From a virus, in IMG/VR virus record IMGVR_UViG_3300009506_000315, positions 1 to 26,224 of that record: a DNA stretch of 26,224 nucleotides, one strand, 5' to 3'. Made by a program: the position numbers and the translations under genes. Below the pieces are notes generated by a model. The model was not told where the DNA came from. It made no database searches and saw only the letters and a list, made by a program, of their open reading frames with translations. This document shows, in pieces, positions 5,570-18,991 of the stretch (positions within the stretch are counted from its first letter, which is position 1; each line of letters starts with the position of its first letter).

Positions 5570-5832
5570 TGTGCAAATGTGTGCAAATGTTATTGACCTA
5601 TTGTCACACGAAAAAACCCTTTAAAATCAATGACTGTGCAAATAGTGACAATTGTGATAATGATTATATGAAAGGCTAGAAATAATAGCAGTAAATTATA
5701 GTAATTATAAAAGAAGGTATTCAGGGGGTTATAGGGAAAACATCTGCACAATTGTCACAGTTTGCACAGTCATTGATTTTAAAGGGAAAATTCCGTGACA
5801 ATGCCGAATTTTCATTGTCACACATTTGCACA
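5570..5832. repeat. iteron-like 10-bp repeats
   Basis: TGTGCAAATG occurs in tandem at 5570-5579 and 5580-5589, and its exact inverse CATTTGCACA lies at 5823-5832. ATTGTCACAC occurs at 5600-5609 and again at 5814-5823. The outer pair of words therefore mirrors or repeats around the big inverted repeat. Confidence 0.7.
5617..5786. repeat. inverted repeat, 40-bp arms
   Basis: The left arm (5617-5656) and right arm (5747-5786) are reverse complements over 26 outer bases and 12 inner bases, with only a 2-base mismatch between the blocks (TA against AG). A 90-base AT-rich loop separates them. The arms contain the TGTGCAAA and GTGACAATTGTG words. Perfect complementarity with no wobble pairs suggests a DNA-level role (protein binding or cruciform) more than an RNA structure. 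Confidence 0.85.
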
Positions 5833-7812: not shown

Positions 7813-7978
7813 CGCTCAACAACTCCCGCATCTCGTCCATCGCCATACACCTGGCCTCCTGTCGACGAGACTCCGACCCGCACACCGGCGGCTCGGAATC
7901 ATCCACATCCCAAGCCAACCCGCACTCGCACATCATCTGATCGCCATACCGGCGGGCTTTACAGTTATCGGCGATCAT
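7805..7978 (-). CDS. small cysteine-rich protein, likely zinc-binding
   Basis: This 57-residue protein starts [20 protein letters not shown]. It has five Cys (positions about 6, 17, 19, 33 and 44), with the pattern C-x10-C-x-C-GLAWD...PPVC resembling small zinc-ribbon phage proteins. ATG 7978 shares one base with the stop of the pentapeptide gene (TAATG), and its stop overlaps the next ATG. The longer possible ORF to 8017 lies inside the pentapeptide gene and lacks a ribosome site. The role is unknown. Confidence 0.55.
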   Translation of the reverse strand: MIADNCKARRYGDQMMCECGLAWDVDDSEPPVCGSESRRQEARCMAMDEMRELLSDD

Positions 7979-8484
7979 TATGGACAATCCGCAAATGCCA
8001 AAACCACATCTTTCCATTCACGCCACCATTCCAGCGCACCTTCATCCATCCTAGTGATTGTTTCGTCGTCGAATTGCCCCCACTCATGCAAGCGATGCCC
8101 CTTACAACCAATCTGCAGCCAATCGTCACACACATTGACGATATAACGCGGTAACTGCATTGAACGGATAACCGCGCCGTCACCGATGGCGTTGAAAATG
8201 CGAATCCCACTCAGGTCGGCCCCACTCAGGTCGGCCCAGCGCAAGTTGGCCTCGCTCAGGTTGGCCCCACTCAGGTTGGCCTCGCTCAGGTTGGCCCCAC
8301 TCAGGTTGGCCCCACTCAGGTCGGCTCCACGCAGGTCGGCCCCACTCAGGTCGGCCCAGCGCAAGTTGGCCTCGCGCAAGTTGGCCTCGCTCAGGTCGGC
8401 CCGGCGCAGGTCGGCCTGTTGCAGCGAATCGCCATTAAATGTATAAATTGTTTCACCTGTAAATCTGTGTTTGATCTCAATCAC
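7978..8484 (-). CDS. pentapeptide-repeat protein
   Basis: This protein of about 168 residues contains some 16 consecutive A(D/N)LxxA pentapeptides (about residues 20-95), e.g. [20 protein letters not shown]. They would form a right-handed square beta-helix. GTG 8484 ([16 protein letters not shown]) is preferred over TTG 8499 because GGAGG lies 8 bases before it, and phage relatives I recall begin the same way. The C-terminal half ([34 protein letters not shown]) is a non-repeat domain also seen in such phage proteins. The function is unproven; gyrase protection (DNA mimicry) is known for some family members but cannot be inferred from repeats alone. A promoter at 8520-8548 precedes it. Confidence 0.85.
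8208..8427. repeat. 15-bp tandem repeats encoding pentapeptides
   Basis: Units such as CTCAGGTTGGCCCCA and CTCAGGTCGGCCCCA repeat head to tail about 14 times with very few base changes. Near identity at synonymous sites suggests recent expansion or homogenisation by slippage. Confidence 0.85.
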
Positions 8485-8519
8485 TTCACCATCCTCCAAT
8501 AATTAGTCATCACGCCCAT

Positions 8520-13717: not shown

Positions 13718-15784
13718 TCAGTCCTCCTTCTTGTAGCGGTACGATTCAAACCCCGCAGCGGCGAGCGGCAATGTCGGTGCCCAGGTCGGCGGTGTGGCCA
13801 GGATGCGGCTCAATTCATCTGTGCTGTGCATCGGCAAGTCCGGGCATTCGGTCACCAATTCGTCATGCACGGATAGGACAATCCGAAACCCGGCCGCCTC
13901 GGCGCCGGGCATGCTGGCCTTGAGTACGTCACCAGCGAGCGCCTGGGTGGCGTTCTCCACGATCTTTCCGCCATAGGTGTACTGCTGGCACCATGTTTTT
14001 CGAACACCGTCGATCCCCCAATAAGAGATATTGTCGGCCTCGTCGACGCGGGGGCGGTAGTACGTGAGGTATTTGCTGCTCGGCAGTTTGACCAGTAGCC
14101 ATTCGCCGGTGCAGCAGAATTGCAGATGAGGGCCGGCTTTGAACACGGCGCCAGGCATGCGGATAGCGGCACACGCAGCATCCTTGGCGGCATACCACAG
14201 CTGCCGGGTCGCCGGATGGCGATCGCGCCACGCGAGTTTGACCGCCTCACTGGCGACCCATTCGACCTCGCTGATCTCCAGCTCGATTTGCTTCTCGCGT
14301 CCGAACCGGTCCAGATTCTCCCAGGCGCGGGAGATCACATCGGCGGGCATGTTAGCCTGGATGGTCTCCCACTGGTCCTCCATCCTGATGCCGTAGGCTT
14401 TGGCGAATGTCTGGAACGCTCCAGCTCCGCCCTCATATCCACAGGCGAGATCGGGCACCTTGCCGAACACATTGCGCTGTTTCTTCTCGATCTTGTAGGG
14501 GTCAACGCCGAGGATGCTGGACGCTGTGATATTGTAAAGGTCGGGGCCGGTGCCCGCATCGTAGTCCCGGAACGCCTGCAACTTCCAATCCTCCCCGGCC
14601 AGATAGGCCAGCACACGCCCCTCGATGTTTGATAAGTCCGAAACGACCAGCTTTTTGCCTCCTGGCGCGGTTAGCACCCCGCGCAATGCCGCTGCACCGT
14701 ACAGCATCAAGTCATCGAAGATGCCGACATGGCAGCCCGCTTTTAATGCAGTGATGTATAGCTCGATCATATCGCCCGGAGGCAGTCCGCGGCTCGGCAG
14801 GTTCTGCGGCTGAAATGTGCGCCCAGCCCATCGGCGGGTACGACTCGCCCCTGCGAATTGCAGGCCGCCCCGGAATCGCCCATCGCCGCTCACCGCGTCC
14901 GCAATACTGCCATATTTCGCCGTGCTGGTCTTGTTGGCCGATAGCATGGTGCGGAACATCTCGCGCAATTCAGCGGGCAGGCGTTCATCCGCGACCATTG
15001 GCTCGATAATGTGTTTGGCCGTCGCTTCGAGGTGTAGGCCGTATTTCGATGCGATGAATTGTTGCACGGCGGTCCGGCGTGTCGGCGCGAGCCCACCGGT
15101 CAGCTCGGCGAATCGCCGCCGCAGGGCCTCTTTCTCAGTAACGGCGGCCCGTGCTCCGGCGATGGCCAATTCGGCATCGACACAAAACCCGCGGTCGTTG
15201 ATCCGCTGATCCAGGTGGTAGTCGGCAATATCGGATGCCTGCCAGTTGTAGGTCGGCAATCGCTTATGAATATCATGCAGCGCGACGATATCCTGGGCGG
15301 CGTAGTCCAGGAACCGCGCCCACTCATCGGGATGCGTCTCGCGAGTGTACCGGTCCGCCTTGTGGTTATTCGGTGCGGGTTTGCAGAATCGCTGGATCAG
15401 CTTCTTACCGTCAGCATCTTTCTGCTTATCCGCGTCCAGCCCCAGTACCGATCCTAGCTGCGCCAGGCTGCCGGGTAGCGCATGCTGCATCGCCTGCACC
15501 ATCGTGCATTGCCAATTTTCGATAGGGATCTCCATCTTGAGGTTACCCAGGCGTAGCACATTGCGATCGAACATGGCATTATGTGCGATCACCCACCGGC
15601 CCCGCGATAGGGCGACCAGATCGGGCGGCGGCGTGCCATCGGAATAATCCCACGTTTGCACAGGCCCATCGCCTACCGCCCAGGTGATGATCATGATCTG
15701 CGCCGACTCGGCGTAACGATAGGTGCCTGCCGTGATCGGCGTCTCGTTGAATGTCTCCGTGTCGAGATAAAGAGGCTCAAGCAT
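13718..15784 (-). CDS. family A DNA polymerase with 3'-5' exonuclease
   Basis: This 688-residue protein replicates phage DNA. The proofreading domain has Exo I LYLDTET (D8, E10), Exo II AHNAMFD (67-73) and Exo III YAAQD (161-165). Polymerase motif A is [19 protein letters not shown] (D383, E388), motif B is [20 protein letters not shown] (434-453), and motif C is [11 protein letters not shown] (HDE 640-642). There is no 5'-nuclease domain, as is usual in phage enzymes. ATG 15784 ([11 protein letters not shown]) is chosen over the earlier in-frame start at 15820 because the extra residues do not fit the family; the start overlaps the previous stop by 8 bases. All catalytic residues are present. 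Confidence 0.93.
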
Positions 15785-16028
15785 CGCGCAACGCCTCGAC
15801 GAAAATGCGACCAACCGCATCGGCGTGATCTTCCCAGTCGGCTTTAATCAGGTACCTGGGGCGAGGTGTGGTATGCCCATGCTCCCACACCGCCTGCACC
15901 GCCTTCTCGGGATACGCCGGCGCCTTGCGCAATTCATTCAGCTCATAGACCAGGCGCTGATTCTCTGCGGCCAGTAATTCGACTTCCTGCCGCAGCGCTT
16001 CGCATTCGGTTGTTATTGGTGATTCCAT
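15777..16028 (-). CDS. small coiled-coil protein
   Basis: This 83-residue protein starts MESPITTECEALRQEVELLA. Residues about 8-36 (ECEALRQEVELLAAENQRLV, then YELNELRK) show leucines in heptad spacing, so a short coiled coil is likely. The rest (AVQAVWEHGHTTPRPRYLIK, ADWEDHADAVGRIFVEAL) is a small basic/acidic domain without known motifs. GGAGG lies upstream of ATG 16028. It is the first gene after the structured RNA and overlaps the polymerase start, so it may be co-regulated with it. An oligomeric accessory role is a guess only. Confidence 0.6.
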   Translation of the reverse strand: MESPITTECEALRQEVELLAAENQRLVYELNELRKAPAYPEKAVQAVWEHGHTTPRPRYLIKADWEDHADAVGRIFVEALRDA

Positions 16029-16057: not shown

Positions 16058-16186
16058 CATCGATTAGCATTCTGATAATTAGCTGGAGACTCGAACTCCA
16101 CCACCGCCGTCGCGGACATCCATGCCTTCCCAGGGACTCGAACCCCGCTTCTATCCTGAGACTAATCACCAGAATGCTAATCGATG
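16058..16186 (-). ncRNA. structured RNA with a 26-bp stem and tRNA-like hairpins
   Basis: The minus-strand transcript of this intergenic stretch can fold into a 26-bp stem (16186-16161 with 16083-16058): 23 Watson-Crick and 3 G-U pairs. Inside are two 5-bp hairpins with the same 7-base loop TTCGAGT, at 16147-16131 and 16100-16084. The second abuts the long stem exactly as a tRNA T-arm abuts its acceptor. Taking the last 7 bp as acceptor gives about 92 bases with CGA in the other loop and a long variable part, as in serine tRNA. However, the D-arm is abnormal, positions 8-9 are missing, and no CCA is encoded. The three wobbles in the stem and one in a hairpin pair only on this strand. A tRNA-like or regulatory RNA is favoured over a working tRNA. 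Confidence 0.6.
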
Positions 16187-16210
16187 CCAAGCAGATTACC
16201 CGCTGCTTGG
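16187..16210. other. 8-bp perfect hairpin next to the structured RNA
   Basis: CCAAGCAG and CTGCTTGG pair around an 8-base loop, directly abutting the 26-bp stem and 12 bases past the DUF2815 stop. It has no T run after it on either strand, so it is not a typical terminator. It may be a processing or mRNA-end-protecting structure. Confidence 0.7.
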
Positions 16211-16222
16211 GCCGGGGTTAAA

Positions 16223-17068
16223 TCAACCCTGCATCATGCCGTGCTGAACTAGCAGATCGTCGGTCCACCCTGCGGCAATCATCGCCTCGTAAGTAGCACC
16301 ATTGGCAGCGGGCAACATGACGTGCTGCGGGGCTGCGGGTGCCGGAGCCGGTGGTGGGACCGGTGCGCCGGCATTGGCCACAAAGTCGGGGTGCGGCTGG
16401 ACGGGTGCCGGAGCTGGGGTCGGCACCTGGGCCGCATTCGGATCGAGCTGTGCGTTAACGGGAACCACAGCAGCCACAGCACCGAACACTGTCGCAGCAT
16501 CCGGGCCATCCGAATTGATGATCTCAATACCGGCACGCACCAGGTCGAATATCGTAGGATTGACGTAGATACCCGGGGATTCCGAGGAACCGTTGCCCTT
16601 GACATTAAGGTATAGGCGTCCGTAGTCACCGCACTTGATTTCCTCCTTACGCTTAATCTGCTCATGCGATGCATAGTGGCCCGTGTGGTAGCAGGGAACG
16701 GTGAGTTCTGTGCTGCTATGAATGACCCAGTGCCCCGGATAGCCATCACGCTCGGCCGGAATTTTGCCCTTCTTATTCGGCACTCTGCTATCACCATCGC
16801 TGATTTTCCATGCGAAAGTGGGCGCCTGATACTCGCCACGCGACCAATCGGTCTGCGCTACCAGTTCGATCTGCCGGCCCCATTCGGTATCCTGCCACCT
16901 AGTCTCCGCACCCTTGGGGATAGCGAGGCCGATATAGGTACTCATGCGCGGTGTGATGCCATCTTTGTGCATTTTGGCCACACCCGTTTTACTATCCGTC
17001 ACCGGATGCGCCGTCATCGGATGGCCGCCAACAATGCGGCCCACTGGTGTTAATATATCAATCGCCAT
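16223..17068 (-). CDS. DUF2815 ssDNA-binding protein
   Basis: This 281-residue protein starts MAIDILTPVGRIVGGHPMTA. The segments YIGLAIPKGAETRWQDTEWG, FAWKISDGDSRVPNKKGKIP, then RDGYPGHWVIHSSTELTVPC and CGDYGRLYLNVKGNGSSESP with GIYVNPTIFDLVRAGIEI match DUF2815, a phage ssDNA-binding family with an OB-like fold. After residue 195 a Pro/Ala-rich linker (PTPAPAPVQP, PVPPPAPAPAAP) leads to a short conserved end, MIAAGWTDDLLVQHGMM, probably a partner-binding tip like those of SSB proteins. GGAGG precedes ATG 17068; it overlaps the DUF2800 stop by 11 bases. The DUF2800-DUF2815-polymerase order is a familiar phage replication set. Confidence 0.82.
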   Translation of the reverse strand: MAIDILTPVGRIVGGHPMTAHPVTDSKTGVAKMHKDGITPRMSTYIGLAIPKGAETRWQDTEWGRQIELVAQTDWSRGEYQAPTFAWKISDGDSRVPNKKGKIPAERDGYPGHWVIHSSTELTVPCYHTGHYASHEQIKRKEEIKCGDYGRLYLNVKGNGSSESPGIYVNPTIFDLVRAGIEIINSDGPDAATVFGAVAAVVPVNAQLDPNAAQVPTPAPAPVQPHPDFVANAGAPVPPPAPAPAAPQHVMLPAANGATYEAMIAAGWTDDLLVQHGMMQG

Positions 17069-18230
17069 CTTTTATTCCTCCGTTAAATATAGCTGCAACG
17101 GCAGCCTCTGTACGTTCGACCAGCTTCAATGCACCGGTCGGAGTTTCACTATAGCCGCTAATGACCGCCGGGTCAATACCGAGCTTTTTAGCCTGGACGG
17201 GGGTGACCGGCTCGGGCGGCTTGCGCAGATCGATCCCCAGCATATCGCCCAGCATCAGCACCTCGGCCGTCGGAACGGACCACTTCGTCCGTGTTTGCCC
17301 AGACTCGACCGCCCAACCAGGCACTGATCCGCCGCCCTTGATGGTCGCCTCGGCCTGCGCCTCCAGACCGGTAAGCCTGGCCTTGATGGTGGCTTGGGCT
17401 TCTCGCAAGATCTGCAATTCCAGTCCCAGGGCATCACCACTGAGCTGTGCGCTAACCGGCTGTCCGGTGTACGCCACGGCAGCCATGCCCGCTTGTTGCA
17501 GCGTCTCACAGGCGTGACGGGCGGAACAATAGCCGCATTCCGGCCCTACACGACAGGTCGGGTTGTCGCCCATCGCCTCGGCTTCGGTCGCCTCCAGCTT
17601 GTTGAAATATGGCCGGAGATCGGATGCCTGAACGGTCCAGGTGCGGATCGTCCCGATCCGGTGATAGGCCCTCGGCTGCACAACATGTAGATTGACGATG
17701 ACCGACTGGTCCGAATAACCATCAACTTGCAAAATATCCAGAATGCCCGCCGTGTAGGTTATCAGCTGCCAGTTCTCGAACGCCTCGACGACTTTATGGC
17801 CGAACTTGTAATCCCATACATGCAGTACACCGGCCACTTTATCGAACAGCCAGCAATCCGGCGTTCCCCAGCTATCGGGATGGATCCGGCCATTGCTGAT
17901 CCGCTCCTCGATATGCGGCACGAAACAGCCCGTCGACACCATCATCTCACGTACATGGTCGGCGTATTGCTTGGCGCCCTCGTAGCTCTCCTGCGTCCAG
18001 ATGACGCCATTGCTCGCGGATAAACCTACCAACTTATCCGCCGGTAGGCATGATGGACCCTTCGTGTAATCGTAGGTCAACATCGCCGCTAACTCATGCG
18101 AGGCCGTCCCCTCGTCCGCCTCCTTGCTGCTCGACGTGTCGGGGTGCTGCGCCCCCATCATGCGCGAGGCGGAGCACTGGACACGCCGGGCCGCCGAGGA
18201 GGGCGGGATAATGGAATGCTCTCCACTCAT
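17058..18230 (-). CDS. DUF2800 PD-(D/E)XK nuclease (Cas4/RecB-like)
   Basis: This 390-residue protein starts MSGEHSIIPPSSAARRVQCS. Nuclease landmarks are EGTASHELAA (E40, H45), WGTPDCWLF (D125), VWDYKFG (D140, K142) and ENWQLITYTAG (152-162). A four-cysteine set, C226-x5-C232-x2-C235-x5-C241, after the nuclease domain suggests an Fe-S or zinc site as in Cas4/AddB-type enzymes. The C-terminal part has a Lys/Arg region ATIKARLTGLEAQAEATIKG and Pro-rich EPVTPVQAKK. ATG 18230 overlaps the previous stop (ATGA). It likely processes DNA ends in recombination-linked replication, together with the DUF2815 protein that follows. Confidence 0.83.
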   Translation of the reverse strand: MSGEHSIIPPSSAARRVQCSASRMMGAQHPDTSSSKEADEGTASHELAAMLTYDYTKGPSCLPADKLVGLSASNGVIWTQESYEGAKQYADHVREMMVSTGCFVPHIEERISNGRIHPDSWGTPDCWLFDKVAGVLHVWDYKFGHKVVEAFENWQLITYTAGILDILQVDGYSDQSVIVNLHVVQPRAYHRIGTIRTWTVQASDLRPYFNKLEATEAEAMGDNPTCRVGPECGYCSARHACETLQQAGMAAVAYTGQPVSAQLSGDALGLELQILREAQATIKARLTGLEAQAEATIKGGGSVPGWAVESGQTRTKWSVPTAEVLMLGDMLGIDLRKPPEPVTPVQAKKLGIDPAVISGYSETPTGALKLVERTEAAVAAIFNGGIKDGD

Positions 18231-18991
18231 TTCGGCATTACCAGATCGGCCCATATCTGCGGGATAAGGTCCGGCCGGCCGCCGAGCAGCTGGAGATTAG
18301 CCACGCCATGCGGCTTGAGGGCGCTATTCACCTGCTCGATGGTCAGCTCCTTGGCCTGCACCTTCATTGTCACCGCCTTGAGGAATGCAGGGAATGTGTC
18401 GGGTGCTTGCCCCAGTTCGGTGGTCACGATGCCTGCCACTTCCGGCGATTGCACGGGCGGCGGAGGGGGTGGGGGTACAATAGTCGCGCCCTGTTGCTCC
18501 TGCGGTGCCGCGGTATCGTCGCTAACACCATCGCCCACCGGTTTAAGCATCCGCACCGGCGCGGCCATCAGCGATTTCAGCTCCTCGATGACACGATTAT
18601 AGTCCTCATCGTCAACGCCCCGTTTCTTGCGCCACGTACCGTCTTGCAGCTTGGCTTTGCTGCCCGCGTGAATGCGCGCGTCCCAGGGCAGGCCGCTGGC
18701 ATCCAGCTCGGGACAATTCGGATCGTCAGTGTCAGCCGTTGGATCAACGGGTAGGTCAAACGATTCATTGTCGGTTGCTGCGGGTGGCGGTGGAGGTGCG
18801 GGATTGCTTGTCGTTACGCACTCTGGGCCGGTATTACACGGATCCGCCGATGTGCAGCTTTCACAGTGCCCATCGTCCATCTCGGGAAGTTCCATTTCGG
18901 GGATCTTGCCCGCCAGGGTGAGCAGCATAGTGGCCCCGGCGACGAGCGCTTTCTCGTCATCGCTGGGGATCGTCAAACTGATATGACTCAT
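18227..18991 (-). CDS. conserved phage protein with proline-rich linkers, unknown function
   Basis: This 254-residue protein starts MSHISLTIPSDDEKALVAGA. ATG 18991 has AAGGAG at good spacing; the longer reading to 19060 would run through the promoter. A Cys cluster HCESCTSADPCNTGPEC lies near residue 45. Two Pro runs (APPPPPA, VPPPPPPPV) flank a central block, LDASGLPWDARIHAGSKAK, followed by LQDGTWRKKRGVDDEDYNRV. I recall that block from other phages, always beside DUF2800/DUF2815 genes. The end (LKAVTMKVQAKELTIEQVNS, GVANLQLLGGRPDLIPQIW) is helical. It is the first gene of the replication operon and may be a DNA-binding or scaffolding partner (inference). Confidence 0.62.
   Translation of the reverse strand: MSHISLTIPSDDEKALVAGATMLLTLAGKIPEMELPEMDDGHCESCTSADPCNTGPECVTTSNPAPPPPPAATDNESFDLPVDPTADTDDPNCPELDASGLPWDARIHAGSKAKLQDGTWRKKRGVDDEDYNRVIEELKSLMAAPVRMLKPVGDGVSDDTAAPQEQQGATIVPPPPPPPVQSPEVAGIVTTELGQAPDTFPAFLKAVTMKVQAKELTIEQVNSALKPHGVANLQLLGGRPDLIPQIWADLVMPK

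Follow-up and report, generated by a model that had tools for sequence, protein, structure and literature searches.

The intergenic region at positions 16,058 to 16,210 of the window, by which we mean the whole stretch of DNA that was analysed (a linear virus record of 26,224 bases, itself a fragment), carries one member of a family of structured RNAs that recurs in other phages. We are highly confident that such a family exists: five strong homologues and one remote one were found in other phage contigs, and the pattern of substitutions among them shows the RNA structure, which has tRNA-like parts, to be under selection. The original idea of a structured RNA, possibly a tRNA mimic, is in this respect supported by the fold, the homologues and the covariation.

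The element belongs to a replication operon on the minus strand, where it is preceded by the gene of a Gp2.5-like ssDNA-binding protein (ssb, 16223-17068; phrog_7011, E = 3.3e-63) and followed by an 83-aa coiled-coil ORF (15777-16028, with the RBS GGAGG); a family A DNA polymerase gene (PolA, 13718-15820) and a DUF2800 nuclease gene (17058-18254) are found on the same strand. This is the place, ahead of the coiled-coil and polymerase genes, that had been announced for it. The gap of 194 bases between ssb and the 83-aa ORF contains an 8-bp hairpin, then a 26-pair stem around a body of 77 bases. The hairpin (CCAAGCAG-CGGGTAAT-CTGCTTGG, 16187-16210) lies immediately against the outer stem on its 5' side, and no T-run follows the hairpin in the window. 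The outer stem is formed by a 5' arm (16161-16186) and a 3' arm (16058-16083) and comprises 26 continuous pairs, namely 23 Watson-Crick and 3 G-U pairs in the minus-strand RNA. The body is made up, in this order, of D-like mini-arm 1 (CT-CAGGAT-AG, 16151-16160), with a conserved GG in its loop, T-arm 1 (CGGGG-TTCGAGT-CCCTG, 16131-16147), D-like mini-arm 2 (GC-ATGGAT-GT, 16116-16125), with a conserved TGGA in its loop, a small hairpin X (CCGC-GACG-GCGG, 16104-16115) at the place of a tRNA anticodon arm, and T-arm 2 (TGGAG-TTCGAGT-CTCCA, 16084-16100), which adjoins the outer stem, all of them on the minus strand. Both T hairpins carry the loop TTCGAGT on 5-bp stems. The extent of the element, its 26-pair stem, the twin TTCGAGT hairpins and the abutting hairpin had all been predicted correctly. 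A 3-bp TGG flanks the element on both sides, and the record contains a single copy of it.

This fold stands above chance. The minus strand has a minimum free energy of -86.8 kcal/mol (z = -6.2), and no shuffled sequence folded as well; the z-score of the plus strand is -5.6. The window has three T-arm-like hairpins, defined by a TTCRANY loop on a stem of at least 5 pairs, where 0.35 would be expected, and twin T-arms within 60 nt occurred in none of 200 simulated windows. Together with the covariation described below, the z-scores and simulations rule out chance or artefact. The optimum of the energy model opens T-arm 2 in the window; this arm rests on the homologues and on covariation. It had also been claimed that the fold favours the transcribed strand, with G-U and not A-C at its irregular positions. 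This holds for the window, and across 19 scanned regions, five of which gave dubious stems, the transcribed strand has 43 G-U but only 16 A-C positions (p = 0.0006); for our own subset, limited to the 14 gaps whose stem is clear, the counts are 26 and 9.

The homologues came from pattern searches and from a covariance model. Searching IMG/VR for a twin GTTCGAGTC pattern returned mostly ordinary tRNA clusters or repeats and one true match, L093, in which the same body as in the window (CGGGGTTCGAGTCCCTGGGTAGGTATGGAAGC...) is carried by a wholly different 22-bp stem, between small ORFs and just upstream of a polymerase gene of another family than that of the window. Looser patterns yielded L150, which immediately precedes a polymerase gene and has an outer stem of 6-7 bp and a 3' end reading ...CCCCTCAACCA, as well as L294 and L304. 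The element of L304 opens a replication cluster and is followed by a dUTPase-like gene, an exonuclease, ssb and polymerase (identities by inspection). The covariance model, built from the window, L093, L150, L294 and L304, retrieved L118 (69.4 bits, E = 5.8e-13), at a place picked by no pattern between the tRNA genes of a 142-kb phage, and more weakly L166 (31.7 bits), just behind a polymerase gene; neither had been selected by any T-loop pattern. Six members, the window among them, score above 60 bits. The window, L093, L150, L304 and L166 share a position in a replication cluster, and L118 lies in a tRNA array. The outer stem has only 6-10 bp in L150, L294, L304, L118 and L166; a long stem does not characterise the family as a whole. 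In L150 and L166, an acceptor-sized stem is followed by ACCA. The statement that CCA features are missing is therefore correct for the window, which has no 3' CCA and a stem of 26 bp instead of a 7-bp acceptor, but fails for these two relatives.

Remote members, at about 20-39 bits, overlap real tRNAs in score. Other matches were set aside. The look-alikes L292, L293, L303, L305, L066, L089, L102, L096 and L108, which display twin T-arms in a closed stem, were not counted because their scores lie at tRNA background. Pattern matches in genome contigs (L231-L238) fold without the structure and were attributed to chance, as were phiKZ-type blastn matches (E = 0.06). Comparison of the L118, L294 and L150 elements with named phages by blastn gave only scraps, mostly tRNA T-arms, and a model search of 398 genomes, in which 10 candidates per genome were scored without a positive control, yielded no copy.

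Some of these look-alikes have features of their own. At L066:3170-3227 and L278:1411-1638, less than 2 kb from a TROVE (Ro60) domain, there is a twin-T-arm RNA of looser resemblance that has a full D-arm (stem AGTCAG/CTGACT), and its outer-stem letters recur in L294, L303, L305 and L089. Twin TTCGAGT hairpins enclosed in stems of 12-19 bp are seen in L102:8490-8610, L096 and L108:1240-1315, with CAGGTGA-like words ahead of the T-arms; these elements possibly constitute a sister family.

In the alignment of seven members, which was fitted to the covariance model and to that extent favours the structure, 94.7% of the cells pair, versus 41-49% with slid partners. Changes on both sides were found at 20 of 25 pairs (shuffled mean 12.1) and in 54 cells (17.3 in shuffles, 6-13 with slid partners), and none of 500 shuffles reached the observed pairing or both-sides-change values. 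A MAFFT alignment of the first five sequences gives the same picture, with 92.1% paired and 18 of 26 pairs changed on both sides. The compensatory changes, whose absence the original prediction had named as refuting, are thus present in either alignment.

The individual helices behave in the same manner. The letters of the outer stem differ completely between homologues with the pairing kept, and its inner 7 pairs are changed on both sides without exception (7/7). The helix of T-arm 1 is 97% paired, with 3 of 5 pairs changed on both sides, and that of T-arm 2 is 95% paired, with 5 of 6, in line with the early view that the second hairpin is stacked on the stem as a T-arm. Hairpin X is found as CCGC/GCGG, CCTC/GAGG or ACAC/GTGT, always around the loop GACG, or as GGG/CCC with a 5-nt loop. 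The D-like mini-arms, of 2-3 bp, pair in 95.8% of their cells, a value equalled by 3 of 500 shuffles; both pairs of mini-arm 1 are changed on both sides, and mini-arm 2 is 100% paired with one such pair. A D-arm, which had been reported as missing, is thereby represented by two mini-arms with kept GG loops. A competing helix that would enclose T-arm 1 (AUGC/GCAU) was rejected, since 309 of 500 shuffles equalled its pairing.

The T-loop TTCRANY closed by G-C, which occurs twice in the window, is kept in all seven aligned members. In the homologues, the first loop is found as TTCGAGT, TTCGAAT, TTCAAGT, TTCGACT or TTCGATT and obeys the T-loop rules (T54 T55 C56 R57 A58 Y60, G-C closed). Since it varies as T-loops vary and does not follow anticodon rules, the reading of this loop as a serine anticodon falls, and with it the proposed serine-tRNA ancestor. 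The search patterns demanded T-loops and, in later scans, also the TGGA of mini-arm 2 (D2), so that conservation at these places is partly selected; the GG of mini-arm 1 (D1), the outer stem and hairpin X figured in no search pattern, yet they are kept.

The consensus order is therefore outer stem, D1 (GG), T1, D2 (TGGA), X, T2 and stem. Judging from the sequences, we infer a layout of two tRNA elbows devoid of an anticodon, each of which would be held by elbow docking. D1 and T2 would take the places of the D- and T-arms beside the acceptor, and T1 and D2 would form a second elbow replacing the anticodon arm. A tRNA cloverleaf with an anticodon arm was not found in the window, where the anticodon place is occupied by a hairpin with a 4-nt loop. 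ARAGORN called no tRNA gene, Rfam was silent at its gathering thresholds and RF00005 was unmatched at E <= 10; under lax Rfam settings, the best sub-threshold likeness was that of T-arm 1 to mascRNA (E = 0.83). Neither Rfam nor the literature searched, which takes in only part of the key work on Y RNAs, yielded an RNA built of two tandem elbow modules.

Several known RNAs resemble the element in part. With canonical phage tRNAs, it shares T-arms and, depending on the member, an acceptor-sized stem with ACCA (L150, L166) or a place in a tRNA array (L118), but it has no anticodon arm, its D arms are reduced to mini-arms, it possesses an extra D/T module and it is uncalled by ARAGORN and Rfam. 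mascRNA, menRNA and viral tRNA-like structures also use tRNA mimicry to recruit tRNA-reading machinery; they are, however, eukaryotic, with a single elbow and another layout. A further parallel can be drawn with T4 species 1 and 2, phage small RNAs encoded in the tRNA region and of unknown role (PMC3014915, PMC9697503). Species 1 (rnaC) has one perfect T-arm, to which the covariance-model match is limited (13.7 bits, L344), but no tandem D/T modules were seen in either RNA and species 2 (rnaD) is devoid of a T-arm. With just one T-arm in common, identity with these RNAs was rejected.

As to function, we give roughly even odds to a complete chain of events in which the element is a phage mimic of the tRNA elbow, made of two tandem D-like/T-arm modules, that is cut from the ssb-pol transcript and acts in trans. 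The element would be co-transcribed with the minus-strand ssb-pol operon, and its long duplex, of more than two helical turns, would be cut by RNase III, freeing the body and splitting the ssb mRNA from the pol mRNA. RNase III sites in phage operons, for example those of T7, are likewise long intergenic stems in a polycistronic transcript, with no tRNA-like top. The 26 pairs of the window exceed the duplex of at least 20 bp used as the RNase III criterion, provided that the region is transcribed as we suppose. In relatives with an acceptor-sized stem, tRNA-processing enzymes would do the trimming instead. Each T-loop would dock with a GG loop in the fashion of a tRNA elbow, and the freed RNA would be stable and act in trans on some host factor that recognises tRNA elbows, such as a tRNA nuclease, PNPase, RNase P or a modification enzyme. 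Factors that read the elbow are many (PMC4810234). More specifically, and only tentatively, we propose that the two anticodon-less elbows could decoy or clamp host factors that recognise elbows, e.g. tRNA-cutting defence nucleases. Small phages would then have swapped the acceptor stem for a long stem cleavable by RNase III, enabling excision from the ssb-pol messenger.

On the other hand, one could assume that the stem and its tRNA-like top act only in cis, by cutting (through RNase III and/or RNase P/Z) or attenuating the ssb-pol transcript so as to yield unequal amounts of ssb and pol, the excised RNA being taskless. We hold this to be a compatible rival, though less likely. In its favour, relatives retrieved through their polymerase or ssb often have, in the ssb-pol gap, a long stem without T-arms and of unrelated sequence (L005, L013, L014, L028, L153, L159, L163, Bordetella phage BPP-1 and Acinetobacter phage 4316). 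In most of them, a short GC-rich hairpin adjoins the 5' arm, within which there is a T-run; the two make a terminator-like unit. Near-polymerase gaps are moreover enriched for strong stems (score of at least 17: 4 of 28 versus 0 of 138 elsewhere, in an automated survey with crude ORF calls), and in further phages of this group, tRNA or tRNA-like sequences are present in gaps upstream of pol (L177:3401-3563, L156:3660-3775, L162:1043-1190). A role in cis leaves unexplained, however, the kept T-loops, GG loops and hairpin X, as well as the members that lie among tRNA genes (L118) or ahead of the whole cluster (L304), and the window is devoid of a terminator-like T-run.

The gaps themselves offer further observations. 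The recurrent unit, with a stem of 9-25 bp whose 5' arm begins with the T-run, is found at L153:3862-3997, L163:3653-3787 and L159:3598-3806, and also at L005:4957-5070, L273:2208-2324 and L274:2403-2500; its sequence is unrelated between phages. In Vibrio phage 1.185.O (L269:997-1200), a stem unit comes right after the terminator, and the sister phage PS25B.1 (L270:1134-1190) has the same terminator and no unit; the body of the 1.185.O unit may hold two T-like hairpins, GGTTGCAAACC and GGTGCAAATCC. In L338, where the C-terminus of ssb is closely similar and the 83-aa coiled-coil protein has a homologue, only a terminator occupies the gap. Finally, ORFs resembling HNH homing endonucleases (by inspection) are hosted in gaps upstream of pol (L154:785-1240, L166:3494-3883, L006:3546-3978), so that this place resembles a hotspot of insertion.

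Another hypothesis would be that the two T-loops interdigitate and bind the tRNA elbow, so that the element would sense tRNA as a leader of the pol genes. Three RNA classes, namely T-box stem I, RNase P and the L1 stalk, do read elbows through twin T-loops (PMC4810234), and the element does stand in the leader of the pol-side genes. This is nonetheless improbable, as the T-loops sit on full tRNA-type stems of 5-6 bp and are accompanied by GG D-like loops, as in mimics, T-box and yjdF were unmatched in Rfam, and members among tRNA genes do not occupy the place of a leader. We likewise give little credence to an element acting as DNA, either a mobile inverted-repeat unit or a cruciform or single-strand replication signal. 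The long inverted repeat, the TGG on both sides and the stem unit present in 1.185.O and missing from PS25B.1 would agree with it, but G-U prevails over A-C on one strand and the kept T- and D-loops are of RNA type. The several copies and shared terminal repeats of a MITE were not found either, the record having one copy and the arms being unrelated between homologues.

It is very improbable, too, that the element is an orphan YrlA Y RNA, whose stem would bind Ro60 and whose tRNA-like end would bind PNPase. The gross plan is the same, since bacterial Y RNAs combine a large 5'/3' stem with D and T arms in 90-150 nt (PMC8394870), and YrlA (RF02553) is also non-coding, anticodon-less and reported from phages; besides, two of the looser look-alikes, L066 and L108, have a Ro60 (TROVE) gene in their records. 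However, the window did not match RF02553 up to E = 10. In a reference set of bona fide bacterial YrlAs (L310-L317, best scores 72-92 bits), the arms follow the permuted order Ro60 stem, T-arm, acceptor hairpin and D-arm, with one T-arm and conserved letters in the Ro60-binding stem, and YrlA goes with a Ro60 gene, whereas the element has two T-arms, two mini D arms and stem letters that are not conserved. A TROVE gene was not found in the records of the window, L093, L150, L294 and L304, some of which are fragments; nor was YrlA found in Vibrio phage pir03 (L290). Identity with YrlA was thus rejected on the RF02553 model and the arm order. Least probable of all is a decayed tRNA gene or functionless pseudo-tRNA, which would suit the silence of ARAGORN, the lack of a usable anticodon and the member in a tRNA array, but is already contradicted by the covariation of every helix across distant phages, which needs continued selection.

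Coming back to the two-elbow mimic acting in trans, imitation of tRNA by non-coding RNA is already known from YrlA, mascRNA and the ends of plant viruses, and T4 species 1 and 2 have long raised the question of what phage RNAs of the tRNA region do. A covariation-backed family that recurs at a defined part of replication operons provides a tractable object for this T4-era question. If the RNA does decoy host factors that read tRNA, phages would have in it an RNA-based counter-defence.

Two other features were noticed in the window. An ORF at 7978-8499 contains pentapeptide-like repeats. A second long inverted repeat, of about 40 pairs of which 27 are perfect, lies in AT-rich intergenic DNA at 5617-5786, flanked by a small-terminase-like gene and a 79-aa ORF, and the words TTGTCACA and TTTGCACA are repeated in it.
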